Source: Thiomicrospira sp. WB1 (GTDB taxonomy: Bacteria; Pseudomonadota; Gammaproteobacteria; Thiomicrospirales; Thiomicrospiraceae). From it: a stretch of DNA of 64,000 nt. Positions 1,103 to 29,809 of this stretch are shown piece by piece. The stretch is from the NCBI RefSeq assembly GCF_001507535.1, contig NZ_LQBN01000002.1, positions 186,001-250,000 on the forward strand, given 5' to 3'. Numbering within the stretch: the first letter of the stretch is position 1; every line of letters starts with the position of its first letter. The notes beneath the pieces are model-generated. The model did no database searches and was not told where the DNA came from. It worked only from the letters and a program-made list of their open reading frames with translations. Made by a program: the position numbers and the translations under genes.

Positions 1103-4100
1103 CCCAATCTTCGTTGCCCTTTGACGCGCCCATTTCCATGCCTTCGCAGCCAGTCTGGCAAACGCTGGTTGTGGACGATGCGATCGAAGACGGTCAGGCC
1201 CGTTTTGAAGCGGTGGACCCCACGCGGTCACTGATTGTTCAGGCCCCGGCCGGGTCGGGTAAGACCGCGTTGCTGACCCAGCGGTTTTTGAGTTTGCTGT
1301 CGGTGGTGGACAAGCCGGAGAACATCGTGGCGATGACCTTTACCAAAAAGGCCGCGGCGGAAATGCGTGAGCGTATTTTGCAGGCATTGCATTCGGCCGA
1401 AGCGCCCTTGCCGTACGAAGCTGGCGTGTTCGAGCGCAACACCCAGCAGCTGGCACAGGCCGCACGACAGCGCGATCGGGAACAAGGCTGGCAGCTGGCG
1501 CAGAACCCCGGACGCTTGCGGATTCGCACCATTGATTCCCTGAATAGCTATTTGGTACAGCAGATGCCTTATCTGTCGCGTCATGGCCTGGCCAGTCAGA
1601 TTACGACCCAGCCCATGCCTTTGTACCGACAGGCGGCCAATGCGGCTTTGAGTGATGGCAATGATGAACAGGCGCAATCGGCAGTGATCACTCTGTTGAA
1701 GCTGGTCAACGGTTCCTATGCCCGGGCCCAGGACCTGTTGGCACAAATGCTGGCCAAACGTGATCAGTGGATGGATGCCTTGCTGCCGTTTCTGGCCGGT
1801 GGGCCCGAAGCCGATCAGGCCGCCCGTCAAACACTGGAGACGGCGATTCAGGACCTGGTGGATCAGGACATTCGGCAGGCCTTGCGGCAATTAACGCCCT
1901 GGTTGCGCCACCTGAATGACTTGCTGGCCATGGCTGAGGTCGCTCAGGCCAATGGTGCGAAGGTTTTGCAAGGCCTTGACCTTCCAGCCCGGTTGGATGA
2001 GAAGACGCCGTTGCCGGTGTGGACGGGACTGTCGCAATGGCTGTTGAAAGCCGATGGCGACTGGTTAAAAACCATGAACGAAGCCAAAGGCGTGTTGTCG
2101 CCGTCCAAGGCCAAAGGCGACGACAAAGCGCAGCGCAAACAGTTTAAGGATCAGTTGACCGAAAGTCTGGAAGAACTCAGAGAGGCCGACTCGGATCGCA
2201 CCGCAGCCCAGGCCCTGCAGAGTTTGGGTCGTCTGCCAGCGCCGTATTATCAGGATGATGACTGGCAGGCGCTGCAGCATCTATTGCATTTGTTGCGACT
2301 GGCGGCGGCGCATCTCAAACTGGTGTTGCAGCAGGAAGGCCAGAGCGACTACATCGAAATCTCTCAGGCGGCGTCCCGCGCTCTGGGCGAGCCGGATGCA
2401 CCCACCGAGTTTGCCGAGCAGTTGGATTATCGTCTGCAGCACCTGCTGATCGATGAGTTTCAGGACACGTCTGTGTCGCAGTTTGCGCTGCTGGAAAAAC
2501 TGATTGCCGGCTGGGCGCCCGGCGATGGGCACAGTTTGTTTCTGGTGGGGGACCCAATGCAATCGATCTACCGTTTTCGGGAAGCCGAAGTGGCCAATTT
2601 CCTGCAGGCCTGGCATCACGGTGTGGGATCGCTGGCGTTAACGCCATTGTCTTTGACCGTGAATTTCCGTTCGAGCCAAAGGGTGGTGGATTGGGTCAAT
2701 GGGGTGTTTGCGCAAATCATGCCGGACGACGATGACATGACCACCGGGGCGGTGGCGTATGCCTCGGCCAATGCTCGCAAAACCCTGGCTGGGGAGGGGG
2801 TCTATTATCGAGGGGATTTCACTCCAGAAACCGATATTGAGACGCTGGTGGCCGAGGTAGCGCGTTGGAAGGCAACGCGTCCGGCGGGAGCCGAGCTGGG
2901 CATTCTGGGGCGCAGTCGCAGTCACCTCAAGCCCATCGCGCAGGCGTTGAAGGAGGCGGGCATTGCGTTTCGGGCCATTGAGCTGGAGGCCTTGTCGGAA
3001 CGACAGGAAATTCAGGACCTGCAAGCGTTGACGCTGGCGCTGGTGCACCGGGAAGATCGCGCGGCCTGGCTGGCCTTGTTGCGCTCGCCTTTGGTTGGCC
3101 TGTCGCTGTTTGATCTGCATGCGCTGCTGGGGGACCCGGCCAGATTCCACGAACCGGTCTGGGCGTCCTTGAATGATCCGGCGCGGCGCGAGTCGCTGTC
3201 GGAAACCGGGCAAAAGGTGCTGGCACAGGCCGTGCCCATTCTGGCCAAAGCCATGCGCTTGAGTGGGGCGGTGGCGTTGAGTGAACGCGTCAAACAGGCC
3301 TGGTTGGAGTTAGGCGGGGCGCGCACGCTGTTGTCGGAGGCGGCGCGTGACAATGTGCGGGTCTGGCAGCGCATGCTGGTGGACCTGGAAACCGAGGGCA
3401 CGGACATCACCGGCGAGACCTTGGCCCAGTCGCTGGAAACTTTGTATGCCCGCCCGGATACGTCCAATGAGGCGGAGCAGGTGCAGTTGATGACGATTCA
3501 CAAATCCAAGGGGCTGGAGTTTGACACGGTGATTCTGCCGTCACTGGGAAAAATCGGTCGCGCTGATGACGAACCGCTGATTCAGTGGCTGCCTTTTAAG
3601 CAGGAAGATGCCCAGGGCAAAACGTTTTCGCGCTGGGTGCTGGCACCGTTGCTGCAAAAAGGCCAATCGGCACGTGCCAAAGCCGATACCCGACTGGGCG
3701 AACTGATCAAAACCTATGAAAAGCGCAAACAACGGCATGAACTGGCTCGATTGCTCTATGTGGCCATCACGCGGGCCAAGCGCTGTCTGCATTTGTTTGT
3801 GTCGTTAAAACCCAGTGACAAAGCGCTGGAAGCACCCGAGTCCTTGGCTCCGGCCCAGGGCAGTTTTCTTGCTCTGCTTTGGCCGCTGATACAGGGTGAG
3901 CGGCTGGATGCGTTTCAACATTGGCTCACCCAGTCGCCCGACCTGGAAACGGCGCCGCCAGAGCAGAGCTGTGTGCCGGCCAAGGTACTGCGTCGCCGGG
4001 CTGATGTCGCACCGTTTGAGTCCGCGCCCGCGCCAAACCAATCTTTTTACCAGGCCTGGTTAACACAGCAGTCGGGCTGGCAGCGTTATCAGCAGCAACA

Positions 4101-4767
4101 CCAGCCCAGTGCCACTGCATCGGCCACGCCGGACACTTCGTTACCCGTATCGAGGGCTGAACAAGCCGCCGGGCCGGGGGTTGGTGTTGGTAAGGCAGTG
4201 GGCAATCTGGTGCACGAAGTGTTGCAATACTGGACGCTGTCTGAGACGCCGGATCAGGATGCGGTGCGTCTGAGGTCGCTCGAACCCTGGTTGCAGCAGC
4301 GTTTGCAGTCGGTGTTGCCCTCTGCGTTTGTTTCTGAGGCTTTGCAACGCGTGACGCATTGTCTGCAACAGGCGCTGACTCATGACCGGGTCAGATGGGC
4401 TTTGCAGACGGACCACTCGGAAGCAAAATCGGAATGGGCCTTGTCCGAGGTGGTGCCCTGGTCGGACCAGATACAGGTGCTGCAGACGGTGGTGGATCGC
4501 ACCCTAGTGGATGACAGCGGGCGGCGCTGGATCATTGATTACAAAACCAATCAGCCACCTGCCTCGCTGACTGACACAGAACGGGCCGCGTGGATTGAGA
4601 GCCTGACACAAACCTATGCTCCGCAACTGGCACGTTATGGAGAGTTGATTGCGCGGTTGGAGTCGCGCCCACAGACACAAGTGCTTTATTTGTGTGCGCT
4701 CAATCAGTGGGTGGAGGTCAACGCTGAGTCAGATCTGGATGTGTCCGGACGCGGTGAAATGGATTGA
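1099..4767 (+). CDS. UvrD/AddA-like helicase-exonuclease
   Basis: A 1222-residue superfamily 1 helicase fused to a C-terminal RecB-type nuclease, the AddA/RecB architecture. Visible motifs in order: Walker A APAGSGKT near residues 49-56; motif Ia MTFTKKAAAEMRER; Walker B/motif II LLIDEFQDTS near 452; GDPMQSIYRFREAE; motif V TIHKSKGLEFD; motif VI LLYVAITRAKR near 888; then GNLVHEVLQYW near 1034 and WIIDYKTN near 1144 as nuclease motifs. Its start overlaps the stop of the AddB-like gene (ATGA). With that partner it probably unwinds and resects broken DNA ends for RecA loading; no recB/recC/recD gene is visible nearby. A perfect copy of the 12-bp palindrome lies inside the gene at 4049-4060, where it encodes YQAWL. 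Confidence 0.9.
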   Translation: MTQSSLPFDAPISMPSQPVWQTLVVDDAIEDGQARFEAVDPTRSLIVQAPAGSGKTALLTQRFLSLLSVVDKPENIVAMTFTKKAAAEMRERILQALHSAEAPLPYEAGVFERNTQQLAQAARQRDREQGWQLAQNPGRLRIRTIDSLNSYLVQQMPYLSRHGLASQITTQPMPLYRQAANAALSDGNDEQAQSAVITLLKLVNGSYARAQDLLAQMLAKRDQWMDALLPFLAGGPEADQAARQTLETAIQDLVDQDIRQALRQLTPWLRHLNDLLAMAEVAQANGAKVLQGLDLPARLDEKTPLPVWTGLSQWLLKADGDWLKTMNEAKGVLSPSKAKGDDKAQRKQFKDQLTESLEELREADSDRTAAQALQSLGRLPAPYYQDDDWQALQHLLHLLRLAAAHLKLVLQQEGQSDYIEISQAASRALGEPDAPTEFAEQLDYRLQHLLIDEFQDTSVSQFALLEKLIAGWAPGDGHSLFLVGDPMQSIYRFREAEVANFLQAWHHGVGSLALTPLSLTVNFRSSQRVVDWVNGVFAQIMPDDDDMTTGAVAYASANARKTLAGEGVYYRGDFTPETDIETLVAEVARWKATRPAGAELGILGRSRSHLKPIAQALKEAGIAFRAIELEALSERQEIQDLQALTLALVHREDRAAWLALLRSPLVGLSLFDLHALLGDPARFHEPVWASLNDPARRESLSETGQKVLAQAVPILAKAMRLSGAVALSERVKQAWLELGGARTLLSEAARDNVRVWQRMLVDLETEGTDITGETLAQSLETLYARPDTSNEAEQVQLMTIHKSKGLEFDTVILPSLGKIGRADDEPLIQWLPFKQEDAQGKTFSRWVLAPLLQKGQSARAKADTRLGELIKTYEKRKQRHELARLLYVAITRAKRCLHLFVSLKPSDKALEAPESLAPAQGSFLALLWPLIQGERLDAFQHWLTQSPDLETAPPEQSCVPAKVLRRRADVAPFESAPAPNQSFYQAWLTQQSGWQRYQQQHQPSATASATPDTSLPVSRAEQAAGPGVGVGKAVGNLVHEVLQYWTLSETPDQDAVRLRSLEPWLQQRLQSVLPSAFVSEALQRVTHCLQQALTHDRVRWALQTDHSEAKSEWALSEVVPWSDQIQVLQTVVDRTLVDDSGRRWIIDYKTNQPPASLTDTERAAWIESLTQTYAPQLARYGELIARLESRPQTQVLYLCALNQWVEVNAESDLDVSGRGEMD
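4049..4060. repeat. Iterated palindrome ACCAGGCCTGGT, copy 1 (intragenic)
   Basis: Perfect 12-mer preceded by TTTTT and followed by TAA, inside the AddA-like gene. The 20 bases around it (TTTTT, the core, TAA) are identical to the copy between lepA and lepB. One of two perfect copies lying wholly inside a gene. Confidence 0.8.
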
Positions 4768-27422: not shown

Positions 27423-28274
27423 TTAAGGCCGCAAGTCGGTTTGGCCCGCCCGTTGCAGTTGTTCACTGTGAACGATGGGGTGGGGGGCCTCGGGCGCGGT
27501 GCAGATCAGCCATTGCTGCTCGATCCACTGTGGAATCAGCTGGGCGGCTGAAGTCATGATGTCTTCGCTTGTGAAGTCGGATTGCTCAGAAAGGGGCTGA
27601 CTCAGGGTTCCCACCATTTCTGAAACCGGTGTTGTGGCATTGGCAAACGCTCTGAGCAGTTGATACATGGGTGCCGTCAGTTCGGCGAAGTGGACTTTGT
27701 CTTCGCTATCCCGGTGGACCAGTAACCAGGTGGCTTCGGATTGAAGCGAATCATTGTGATCGCGCTGGCTGGAAATCCGATGCACCGGCGTTTGATAGTG
27801 CAAGGGCCAGACCAGCGGTGAGAGTGTCAGCACCGGGTCCTGGTCAATGCGTGGGGCTGGGAAGGGTGAGGGTTCAAATGGTTCAATGGACACGGCCAGT
27901 TCCACCCATTCATAGTGCGCGAGTTCTCCTAACATGGGTGTTTGCTTGAGTATCGGATGGTCGGTTTGGGCCAGAAACCGTAACCATTCCTGACCCAGTT
28001 TGTGAAAATAAGGTGTTTGGCTGCCATGGGTTTGCATGAAGCTGCGTACAAGCTCTTCCCATTGCGCGTCGCCCAGCCATTTTTTCATGACGGGGAACAT
28101 GCTCCCGAGCAACCCGTTAAAGTTGTTGAAAAAAAGCGATTCGTAGACGTTGAGGCGGCGTGTTTCAATGGTCGCGGCACCCGGTTGACTGGGATCGTAG
28201 GGTTGATCGGGATCGCGCAGGTGCCGGGCAAAGTGTTGCTGCAATCTCTGAAAAGCGGGTTGGTCTTTTGTCAT
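27423..28274 (-). CDS. HvfC/BufC-type RiPP maturation partner (DUF2063)
   Basis: 283-residue protein of the HvfC/BufC family (DUF2063 N-terminal domain), the recognition partner that brings the precursor peptide to the MNIO enzyme. The N-terminal signature is visible: FQRLQQHFARHLRD, TRRLNVYESLFFNNFNGLLGSMFPVMKKWLG and YFHKLGQEWLRFL. The C-terminal part (from about 160) looks like a winged-helix substrate-binding region with weaker conservation (TAPMYQLLRAFANATTPVSEMV). The ATG at 28274 begins two bases after the stop of the upstream hvfB-like gene, so the two are translationally coupled. It is the last gene of the hvfA-hvfB-hvfC operon and converges on the tRNA-Arg terminator. Confidence 0.85.
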   Translation of the reverse strand: MTKDQPAFQRLQQHFARHLRDPDQPYDPSQPGAATIETRRLNVYESLFFNNFNGLLGSMFPVMKKWLGDAQWEELVRSFMQTHGSQTPYFHKLGQEWLRFLAQTDHPILKQTPMLGELAHYEWVELAVSIEPFEPSPFPAPRIDQDPVLTLSPLVWPLHYQTPVHRISSQRDHNDSLQSEATWLLVHRDSEDKVHFAELTAPMYQLLRAFANATTPVSEMVGTLSQPLSEQSDFTSEDIMTSAAQLIPQWIEQQWLICTAPEAPHPIVHSEQLQRAGQTDLRP

Positions 28275-28276
28275 GA

Positions 28277-29128
28277 TCAACTGGCCTTTCTGTGTTGGCG
28301 GTTGGTCCAGCGTTCTTGTCGACGACGAATTTCTTCGACTTCTTCCATCAGTTCCGGAAACGGCGGGATGTTAAAGTCGCGCTCCAGTAAGGTCGGTTTC
28401 AGGCCATGGGTGTCGTAGGTGAAGTCGAGCAGTTCCCAGACTTCGGCCTGAATGTCCTGGCCATGCGTGTCCACTTTCAAGTCTTCGGCTTCGTCAAAAT
28501 GCCCGGCCATGTGCAGGTACATGATGCGCTCGCCGGGCATGCTTTCAATGAATTGCCGTGGGTCGTAGCGATGGTTGATGGCATTGACATAAGTGTTGTT
28601 GACATCCAGAAGCAGTCCACAGTCCGCCTCATCAATGACCGCATTGACGAACTCGGCCTCGCTCATGTCAGACTGCGTTTGAGCGTAGAAAGAGATGTTT
28701 TCAATGCCGATCTTCTGTTCAAGCGTGTCCTGAACCTGACGAATGCGATCGGCCACGTAATACACTGCTTCTTCGGTAAAGGGCATGGGCATCAGATCAT
28801 AGAGCAGGCCCTGTTCGTCGCCGCAGTAGCTCAAATGTTCGGTGTAGCAGTGAATGTCATGGCTGCGAAAAAACTGTTTCAGTTGTTGAAGATAATCGGT
28901 ATTCAGCGGGCGCGGCCCGCCCAGATCCAGCGACAGACCATGACAGGTAAAGGGAAAGCGTTCGGTCAGTCGGCGTAGGCCCTTGCCATAAGCCCCGCCC
29001 AGATCAATCCAGTTTTCGGGGGCGATTTCAAAAAAATCAATGACCGCGTCATCGGGCACTTGATGGATGAAATCGCGTCTCAAGCCAAGCCCAACGCCGT
29101 CGATCGGTTTGCGTCCAGTGTAGGCCAT
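28277..29128 (-). CDS. HvfB/BufB-type multinuclear iron oxidative enzyme (DUF692)
   Basis: 283-residue TIM-barrel enzyme of the MNIO/DUF692 family (MbnB relatives). In characterised hvf systems it oxidises Cys residues of the precursor to oxazolone-thioamide groups, using several iron ions. Metal-ligand motifs are all present: FFEIAPENW, TCHGLSLDLG, CYTEHLSYCG, GIENISFY, LLLDVNNTYVNAINH and YLHMAGHFDEA. The ATG follows AGGAG by six bases. The substrate is almost certainly the EGKCG-repeat protein encoded just upstream; a long hairpin separates the two genes. Confidence 0.9.
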   Translation of the reverse strand: MAYTGRKPIDGVGLGLRRDFIHQVPDDAVIDFFEIAPENWIDLGGAYGKGLRRLTERFPFTCHGLSLDLGGPRPLNTDYLQQLKQFFRSHDIHCYTEHLSYCGDEQGLLYDLMPMPFTEEAVYYVADRIRQVQDTLEQKIGIENISFYAQTQSDMSEAEFVNAVIDEADCGLLLDVNNTYVNAINHRYDPRQFIESMPGERIMYLHMAGHFDEAEDLKVDTHGQDIQAEVWELLDFTYDTHGLKPTLLERDFNIPPFPELMEEVEEIRRRQERWTNRQHRKAS

Positions 29129-29151
29129 GGTTGCTCCTAGCGGTTAATCAC

Positions 29152-29186
29152 CATCAGAAAACGCCTGTCGTCGGCGTTTTCTGATG
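29152..29186 (-). terminator. Intercistronic hairpin between precursor and maturase genes
   Basis: A perfect 14-bp stem CATCAGAAAACGCC / GGCGTTTTCTGATG with a seven-base loop, in the 92-base gap between the hvfA-like and hvfB-like genes. There is no T tract after it in the leftward direction, so it may act as a leaky terminator or an RNA-stabilising 3' end that keeps the precursor transcript in excess, a common layout for peptide-product operons. Confidence 0.6.
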
Positions 29187-29220
29187 ACAGGCGCGAAAGA
29201 CAAAGCGTTAAGGTTGTGGT

Positions 29221-29640
29221 TTAACGCCCGCCACACTTGCCTTCACCGCATTTACCTTCCATGTTTTTGCGTTCATAGCGTTCAGACATGCCGCCGCCGC
29301 ATTTGCCTTCACCACATTTGCCCTCGCCGCACTTGCCTTCCATCCCTTTGGCTTTGCCTTTTGCATGGTCGGGCATGCCGCCGCCGCATTTGCCTTCACC
29401 ACATTTGCCTTCGCCGCACTTGCCTTCTATGCCTTTGGCTTTGCCTTTTGCATGGTCGGGCATGCCGCCGCCACACTTGCCTTCACCGCATTTGCCTTCG
29501 GCCAGCACGTTTTCATAGCCTTGTTCCATTTTTTTGATGCCGAATGGGCTGTCTGAGGCCAACGCCTGGCCTGCAAAGGATGAAGCCGCGGCAGCACCGG
29601 CCAGTTTTAGAAAATCACGACGCGTTTTTGAATCACTCAT
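29221..29640 (-). CDS. HvfA-type RiPP precursor, ten EGKCG motifs
   Basis: 139-residue precursor of an oxazolone/thioamide-modified, probably copper-binding peptide. The N terminus has a twin-arginine motif (TRRDFLKLAG) and a hydrophobic signal ending in AGQALASD, so export appears to use Tat. The core (from residue 49) is made of EGKCG motifs in groups of 2, 3, 3 and 2, separated by GGMPDHAKGKAKG(I/M) or a variant spacer (GGMSERYERKN). All ten Cys (51, 56, 75, 80, 85, 104, 109, 114, 131, 136) lie in EGKCG motifs; there are none elsewhere. GAGGAGCC precedes the ATG. Frames on the opposite strand over this gene (LPSPHLPSP-like repeats) are shadows of the DNA repeat. Confidence 0.88.
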   Translation of the reverse strand: MSDSKTRRDFLKLAGAAAASSFAGQALASDSPFGIKKMEQGYENVLAEGKCGEGKCGGGMPDHAKGKAKGIEGKCGEGKCGEGKCGGGMPDHAKGKAKGMEGKCGEGKCGEGKCGGGMSERYERKNMEGKCGEGKCGGR

Positions 29641-29797: not shown

Positions 29798-29809
29798 ACC
29801 AGGCCTGGT
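29798..29809. repeat. Iterated palindrome ACCAGGCCTGGT, copy 6 (hvfA-tas divergent gap)
   Basis: Perfect 12-mer with TTTTTC on the left and AAGAAA on the right. It lies between two divergent genes, 62 bases before tas, where no terminator is needed, which argues that termination is not its only role. Confidence 0.85.

Follow-up and report, generated by a model that had tools for sequence, protein, structure and literature searches.

The stretch of DNA analysed here (64,000 nucleotides of Thiomicrospira sp. WB1, hereafter the window) carries a three-gene locus which, judged from its sequence, probably encodes a Tat-exported variant of the oxazolin/captophorin RiPPs whose product sequesters copper in the periplasm, a reading to which we assign a probability of roughly 0.78. 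The Tat signal is the truly unusual point of this locus, and one that characterises the Thiomicrospiraceae as a whole, not the window locus alone. We regard it as a clade-wide Tat variant of the known HvfABC-type system. Within the searchable literature, which leaves subscription papers mostly beyond reach, there is no report of a Tat signal for MNIO-modified EGKCG precursors, and novelty is claimed within that limit.

The genes hvfA, hvfB and hvfC run in one direction on the minus strand, from 29640 to 27423 (Table 1). All three family models (NF050137, NF003818 and NF050145) are matched above their cut-offs, which supports the HvfABC-type assignment made in an earlier sequence-only reading. 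hvfB and hvfC adjoin each other, with the hvfB stop ending at 28277 and hvfC most likely starting at the ATG at 28274, not at the TTG at 28280. The neighbouring genes in the window (ftsK, lolA, rarA, crcB, serS and an aldo-keto reductase gene), whose translations we inspected, are presumably housekeeping genes, and two tRNA genes lie in the neighbourhood of the locus.

Table 1. Features of the hvf locus, in window coordinates.
Feature	Position	Strand	Evidence
hvfA-type precursor, 139 aa, ten EGKCG motifs	29221..29640	-	NF050137, 54.6 bits (cut-off 19.5)
Predicted Tat signal peptide MSDSKTRRDFLKLAGAAAASSFAGQALA	29557..29640	-	TIGR01409 above cut-off; TatC in genome; low h-region hydropathy
Conserved element SPFGIKKMEQGY right after the signal	29515..29550	-	Alignments; common to Sec-type precursors
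EGKCG array, groups 2-3-3-2, 29-aa (87-bp) repeat unit	29230..29499	-	Repeat and motif count
hvfA-hvfB intergenic hairpin, 14-bp stem, 7-nt loop	29152..29186	-	Folding z -3.3
hvfB-type MNIO (DUF692/PF05114), 283 aa	28277..29128	-	NF003818, 419 bits (cut-off 360)
hvfC-type partner, DUF2063 and NGO1945_C/RRE-type domain	27423..28274	-	NF050145, 221 bits (cut-off 142); PF09836, PF22106

The precursor holds ten exact EGKCG motifs in runs of 2-3-3-2, and all ten of its cysteines (10/10) lie inside them, just as the sequence-only reading had counted. The middle of the array is built from an 87-bp unit present in 2.5 copies with 95% matches. When the mature chain was shuffled 20,000 times, EGKCG never occurred more than twice per shuffle. 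Furthermore, the pairwise codon differences among the ten copies comprise 90 synonymous and 0 nonsynonymous changes, which shows that selection at the protein level maintains the motif. Shuffling and the purely synonymous variation between copies together rule out a chance origin of the array. The precursor scores below the narrower HvfA equivalog NF050188 (40.8 bits, cut-off 95), and we therefore file it under the wider EGKCG/oxazolin type and not as HvfA sensu stricto.

The motif number and the 2-3-3-2 grouping with near-identical spacers had also been put forward as unusual, a view that we rejected. Of the 136 distinct precursors sampled that have two or more exact EGKCG motifs, 18 contain at least ten of them and 27 contain a triple run, and the largest published precursor of the family has 58 Cys (PMC12452194). 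At four loci of the survey (L009, L135, L136 and L139), Tat-type precursors carry mainly QGNCG/TGNCG instead of EGKCG, with Asn replacing Lys before the Cys; the HvfB of these loci belongs to the same Tat clade that is described below.

The metal ligands of HvfB are intact. Window HvfB residues N178, D220 and H222 correspond to HvfB N175, D242 and H244, residues whose substitution kills the enzyme (PMC13419390), while H63, H98, E143, N144, H206 and H210 are near-invariant in the alignment. The proposal of an MNIO with full metal ligands and a DUF2063 partner thus holds. The closest solved structure to window HvfB is 3BWW, the structural reference used by the HvfB authors (PMC13419390), and window HvfC aligns with the solved structure 3DEE. 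Among named organisms, Hydrogenovibrio halophilus DSM 15072 has the most similar HvfB (91%), followed by other Piscirickettsiaceae/Thiomicrospiraceae. We assign the locus to a Hydrogenovibrio close to H. halophilus. At HvfB residue 68 (window 28925-28927), five residues past a conserved His, all 62 HvfB proteins from Sec-type loci (62/62) read HGLSLS and all 18 of the Tat clade (18/18) read HGLSLD/N.

Reading the locus as an HvfABC-type copper RiPP is sound by homology, and copper binding is predicted from characterised relatives. The oxazolone-thioamide chemistry originally suggested for the product has, however, been superseded: in 2025-26 the HvfBC product was reassigned from oxazolone/thioamide to 5-thiooxazole, and FonBC, an EGKCG relative, likewise forms 5-thiooxazole with the loss of four hydrogens per Cys (PMC13097082, PMC13419390). 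The products of both enzyme pairs bind Cu (PMC13097082, PMC13419390). HvfBC is far more effective on HvfA still carrying its signal peptide (PMC13097082, PMC13419390), and the signal region therefore acts as a leader.

Among characterised systems, the oxazolin locus hvfABCX of nontypeable Haemophilus influenzae shares with the window an EGKCG precursor with a signal peptide, an MNIO HvfB and a DUF2063/RRE HvfC. The window differs from it in having ten motifs instead of six, a Tat instead of a Sec signal, no DoxX, a hairpin between hvfA and hvfB, and a precursor that misses the HvfA equivalog. Fontiphorin (fonABC, Fontimonas thermophila; proposed class captophorins) is of like kind, as a seven-site Lys-Cys repeat precursor and an MNIO-PME1 pair yield 5-thiooxazoles. 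Its motif number differs, and a Tat signal is not reported for it. Bulbicupramide (mmrABC, Microbulbifer) is a described locus without DoxX whose EGKCG cysteines (5-8) give a copper-binding product, but it has a conserved leader without a reported Tat signal, and its flanking genes are unrelated to those of the window. The bufferins Buf1 and Buf2 also combine an MNIO, a PME1 and a signal peptide, and chelate periplasmic copper by thiooxazole; unlike the window, they have DUF2282 or 6/12-Cys precursors with Sec signals. The window MNIO scores below the BufB model NF050167 (265 vs 310 bits), no bufferin precursor model matches in the window locus, and the locus falls outside BufABC.

EGKCG/oxazolin precursors are described as Sec-dependent in the published survey of MNIO substrates (PMC12452194). 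A Sec signal is a usual, though not defining, trait of such loci, and the window precursor carries a Tat-type signal instead. It scores 21.9 bits against the Tat model TIGR01409 (cut-off 16.7), and its N-terminus alone scores 24.3. The model was matched by all 16 Thiomicrospiraceae precursors tested and by none of 18 Sec-type controls (16/16 vs 0/18), and RRxFL is invariant across the 16 aligned Thiomicrospiraceae sequences. The mean hydropathy of the h-region is 1.66 in Thiomicrospiraceae vs 2.07 in Sec-type relatives (p = 9e-7), with 1.25 for the window; a weaker hydrophobic core is an expected property of Tat signals. At the sequence level the precursor thus presents the features of a Tat substrate, namely an S/T-RR-x-F-L-K n-region, moderate hydrophobicity and an AxA site, with cleavage expected after ALA (residue 28), and the genome encodes TatC of the Tat translocase. 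The twin-arginine signal pointed out in the sequence-only reading therefore passes the Tat model and is unusual beside Sec-type relatives, but it is shared across the Thiomicrospiraceae.

The two types of precursor differ in the n-region and share what follows. With a profile built from Tat precursors, most Sec-type ones align only from about position 14 onward, and the later part, ending NPFxxxxMxxGYxxVA, is common to both. This suggests that HvfC reads something within the retained part, and makes SPFGIKKMEQGY a likely recognition element for HvfC.

To assess how far the Tat type extends, we searched 63 Thiomicrospiraceae genomes with a profile of the signal plus the element; the order-level search covers the same 63 genomes. 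A full Tat precursor is present in 30 of the 63, and genome G192 additionally has a divergent one. An MNIO is encoded in 30/30 genomes with a full Tat precursor vs 2/33 of the others, the two being G386 and G401 (Fisher 6e-16). In an even sample of the class, 98 of 369 genomes have the EGKCG domain. A script sorted 135 unique precursors, the exceptions in G386 and G401 being read by eye outside it: 28 are of the Tat type and all from Thiomicrospiraceae (29 including that of the window), and 106 are non-Tat and all from outside the family. Apparent RR matches outside the Thiomicrospiraceae lay upstream of the true start codon, and none is left in the classified set. When the Tat/Sec label is mapped onto an HvfB tree of 81 rows, a single change is enough, and the Thiomicrospiraceae clade is fully supported.

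A second HvfB tree adds the metagenome-assembled genome G386, whose HvfB (70% identity to the nearest Thiomicrospiraceae member) sits on a long branch within the Tat clade, close to that of the window, yet whose precursor is of the Sec type. This genome has 5% contamination, and the contig of the locus has 64% GC; the cause is a renewed loss of the Tat signal, an exchange of genes or a mixed bin. Since its Tat-clade HvfB stands beside a precursor of the Sec type, a Tat precursor may not be a strict requirement for the HvfB enzymes of this clade. This gene pair (L253; contig 56, about 1300-4200) is followed by apparent ECF sigma and anti-sigma genes, and the site is a possible natural Tat-to-Sec reversal or exchange. 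The other exception, G401, combines a Sec-type precursor with an MNIO that is only about 38% identical to the group of the window; at its two loci (L252 on G401:C157 and L254 on G401:C62), masked runs of N interrupt the precursor and a nearby stretch.

The three genes had been proposed to form one leftward operon. Their shared direction and the junction of hvfB and hvfC agree with this, but the hairpin stands between hvfA and hvfB. Terminator-like hairpins occupy this position in 9 of 15 Thiomicrospiraceae loci vs 2 of 37 others, most of which have a gap of no more than 40 bases. The T-run of the window hairpin lies inside its stem, so it is no textbook terminator; it is possibly an attenuator or an mRNA-stabilising stem.

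Near the hvf genes, at window 29798-29809, we observed a perfect palindrome, ACCAGGCCTGGT, with 400 exact copies in the 2.28 Mb of the genome and 0 for a reversed-pattern control; RNCAGGCCTGNY occurs 16 times in the window vs 0.37 expected. Most copies of ACCAGGCCTGGT lie between genes and have T/A-rich flanks (at least 8 of 12); the core CAGGCCTG is also enriched in other Thiomicrospiraceae, where its flanks differ by species. With 400 copies genome-wide, a role of CAGGCCTG as a copper operator was rejected. ACCAGGCCTGGT may be a HIP1-like, an uptake-like or a nucleoid-protein site.

The DoxX-like gene hvfD/hvfX is frequent but not universal in EGKCG/oxazolin loci. Its reported absence beside the window locus holds: no DoxX was found around the hvf genes or elsewhere in the genome, which is 100% complete. 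What does not hold is that this is unusual. DoxX lies near the precursor only in a few Thiomicrospiraceae loci (H. halophilus, G379, G380, G382 and a fragment near G192), which makes its absence the norm, and we rejected that absence as the mark of a new system even though the sister species H. halophilus has hvfD, placed exactly between the aldo-keto reductase gene and hvfA. At that place in the window there is no trace of an hvfD remnant. In G379 and G380 (L219 and L255), the precursor and doxX share a locus without hvfBC, and an MNIO gene lies elsewhere in the genome; at L219 a TetR-like gene adjoins the pair.

Based on these features and on the homologues, we propose the following sequence of events. 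hvfA would be made in excess over the enzymes, as the hairpin would attenuate read-through or protect the upstream message. HvfC would bind HvfA in its N-terminal part, probably at the lower signal region and PFGxxxMxxGY; still in the cytoplasm, the iron enzyme HvfB would convert as many as ten Lys-Cys-Gly cysteines to 5-thiooxazoles by oxidation. The Tat translocase would then recognise the modified chain via TRRDFLK, the signal would be removed after ALA, and mature HvfA would bind copper in the periplasm. In evolutionary terms, the Thiomicrospiraceae would have replaced the n-region of the Sec type with one of the Tat type and retained the recognition element. Routed through Tat, the precursor would stay out of the Sec channel, giving the enzymes time to finish.

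A bolder extension of this proposal is that the leader was rebuilt as a Tat signal such that only the finished, compact and possibly copper-loaded peptide is exported, which would make it a quality-controlled, Tat-dependent metallophore or even a route of copper export, in contrast to the characterised relatives, all of which use Sec. We consider this speculative and rather unlikely. Two points count against the preferred reading itself. Tat prefers folded cargo, whereas EGKCG chains may not fold. Twin-arginine signals are also sometimes usable by Sec, so that the same RiPP might in practice be routed via Sec with the twin arginine as a neutral lineage feature. The use of Sec by all characterised relatives (PMC12452194, PMC13419390) and the Sec-type precursor beside the nested HvfB of G386 speak for such routing. 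The invariance of RRxFL, the clean separation of family members from controls by the Tat model and the reduced hydropathy speak against it and make it unlikely.

It is slightly less likely still that the product serves another metal or a stress role (for example Zn, Au or redox buffering) instead of copper. No copper gene lies beside the locus, and loci of the related bufferins have links to other metals, with metal specificity left open by the authors, but the characterised EGKCG products bind Cu. That the locus is decaying or inactive through loss of hvfD, as the arrangement in H. halophilus and the lack of any DoxX in the genome could indicate, is highly improbable: most Thiomicrospiraceae loci have no DoxX near the precursor, variation in the array is only synonymous, all HvfB ligands are intact, and hvfABC is enough for modification in E. 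coli. The Tat-exported copper RiPP remains the preferred reading.

How premature export before modification is avoided has been stated as unsolved (PMC12452194). A natural clade that couples this enzyme pair to a Tat-tagged precursor, with one nested Sec-type exception, makes this question testable. The Tat clade furthermore breaks the published correlation of DUF2063/RRE-type partners with Sec-type signals, and annotators should check RiPP precursors for Tat signals.
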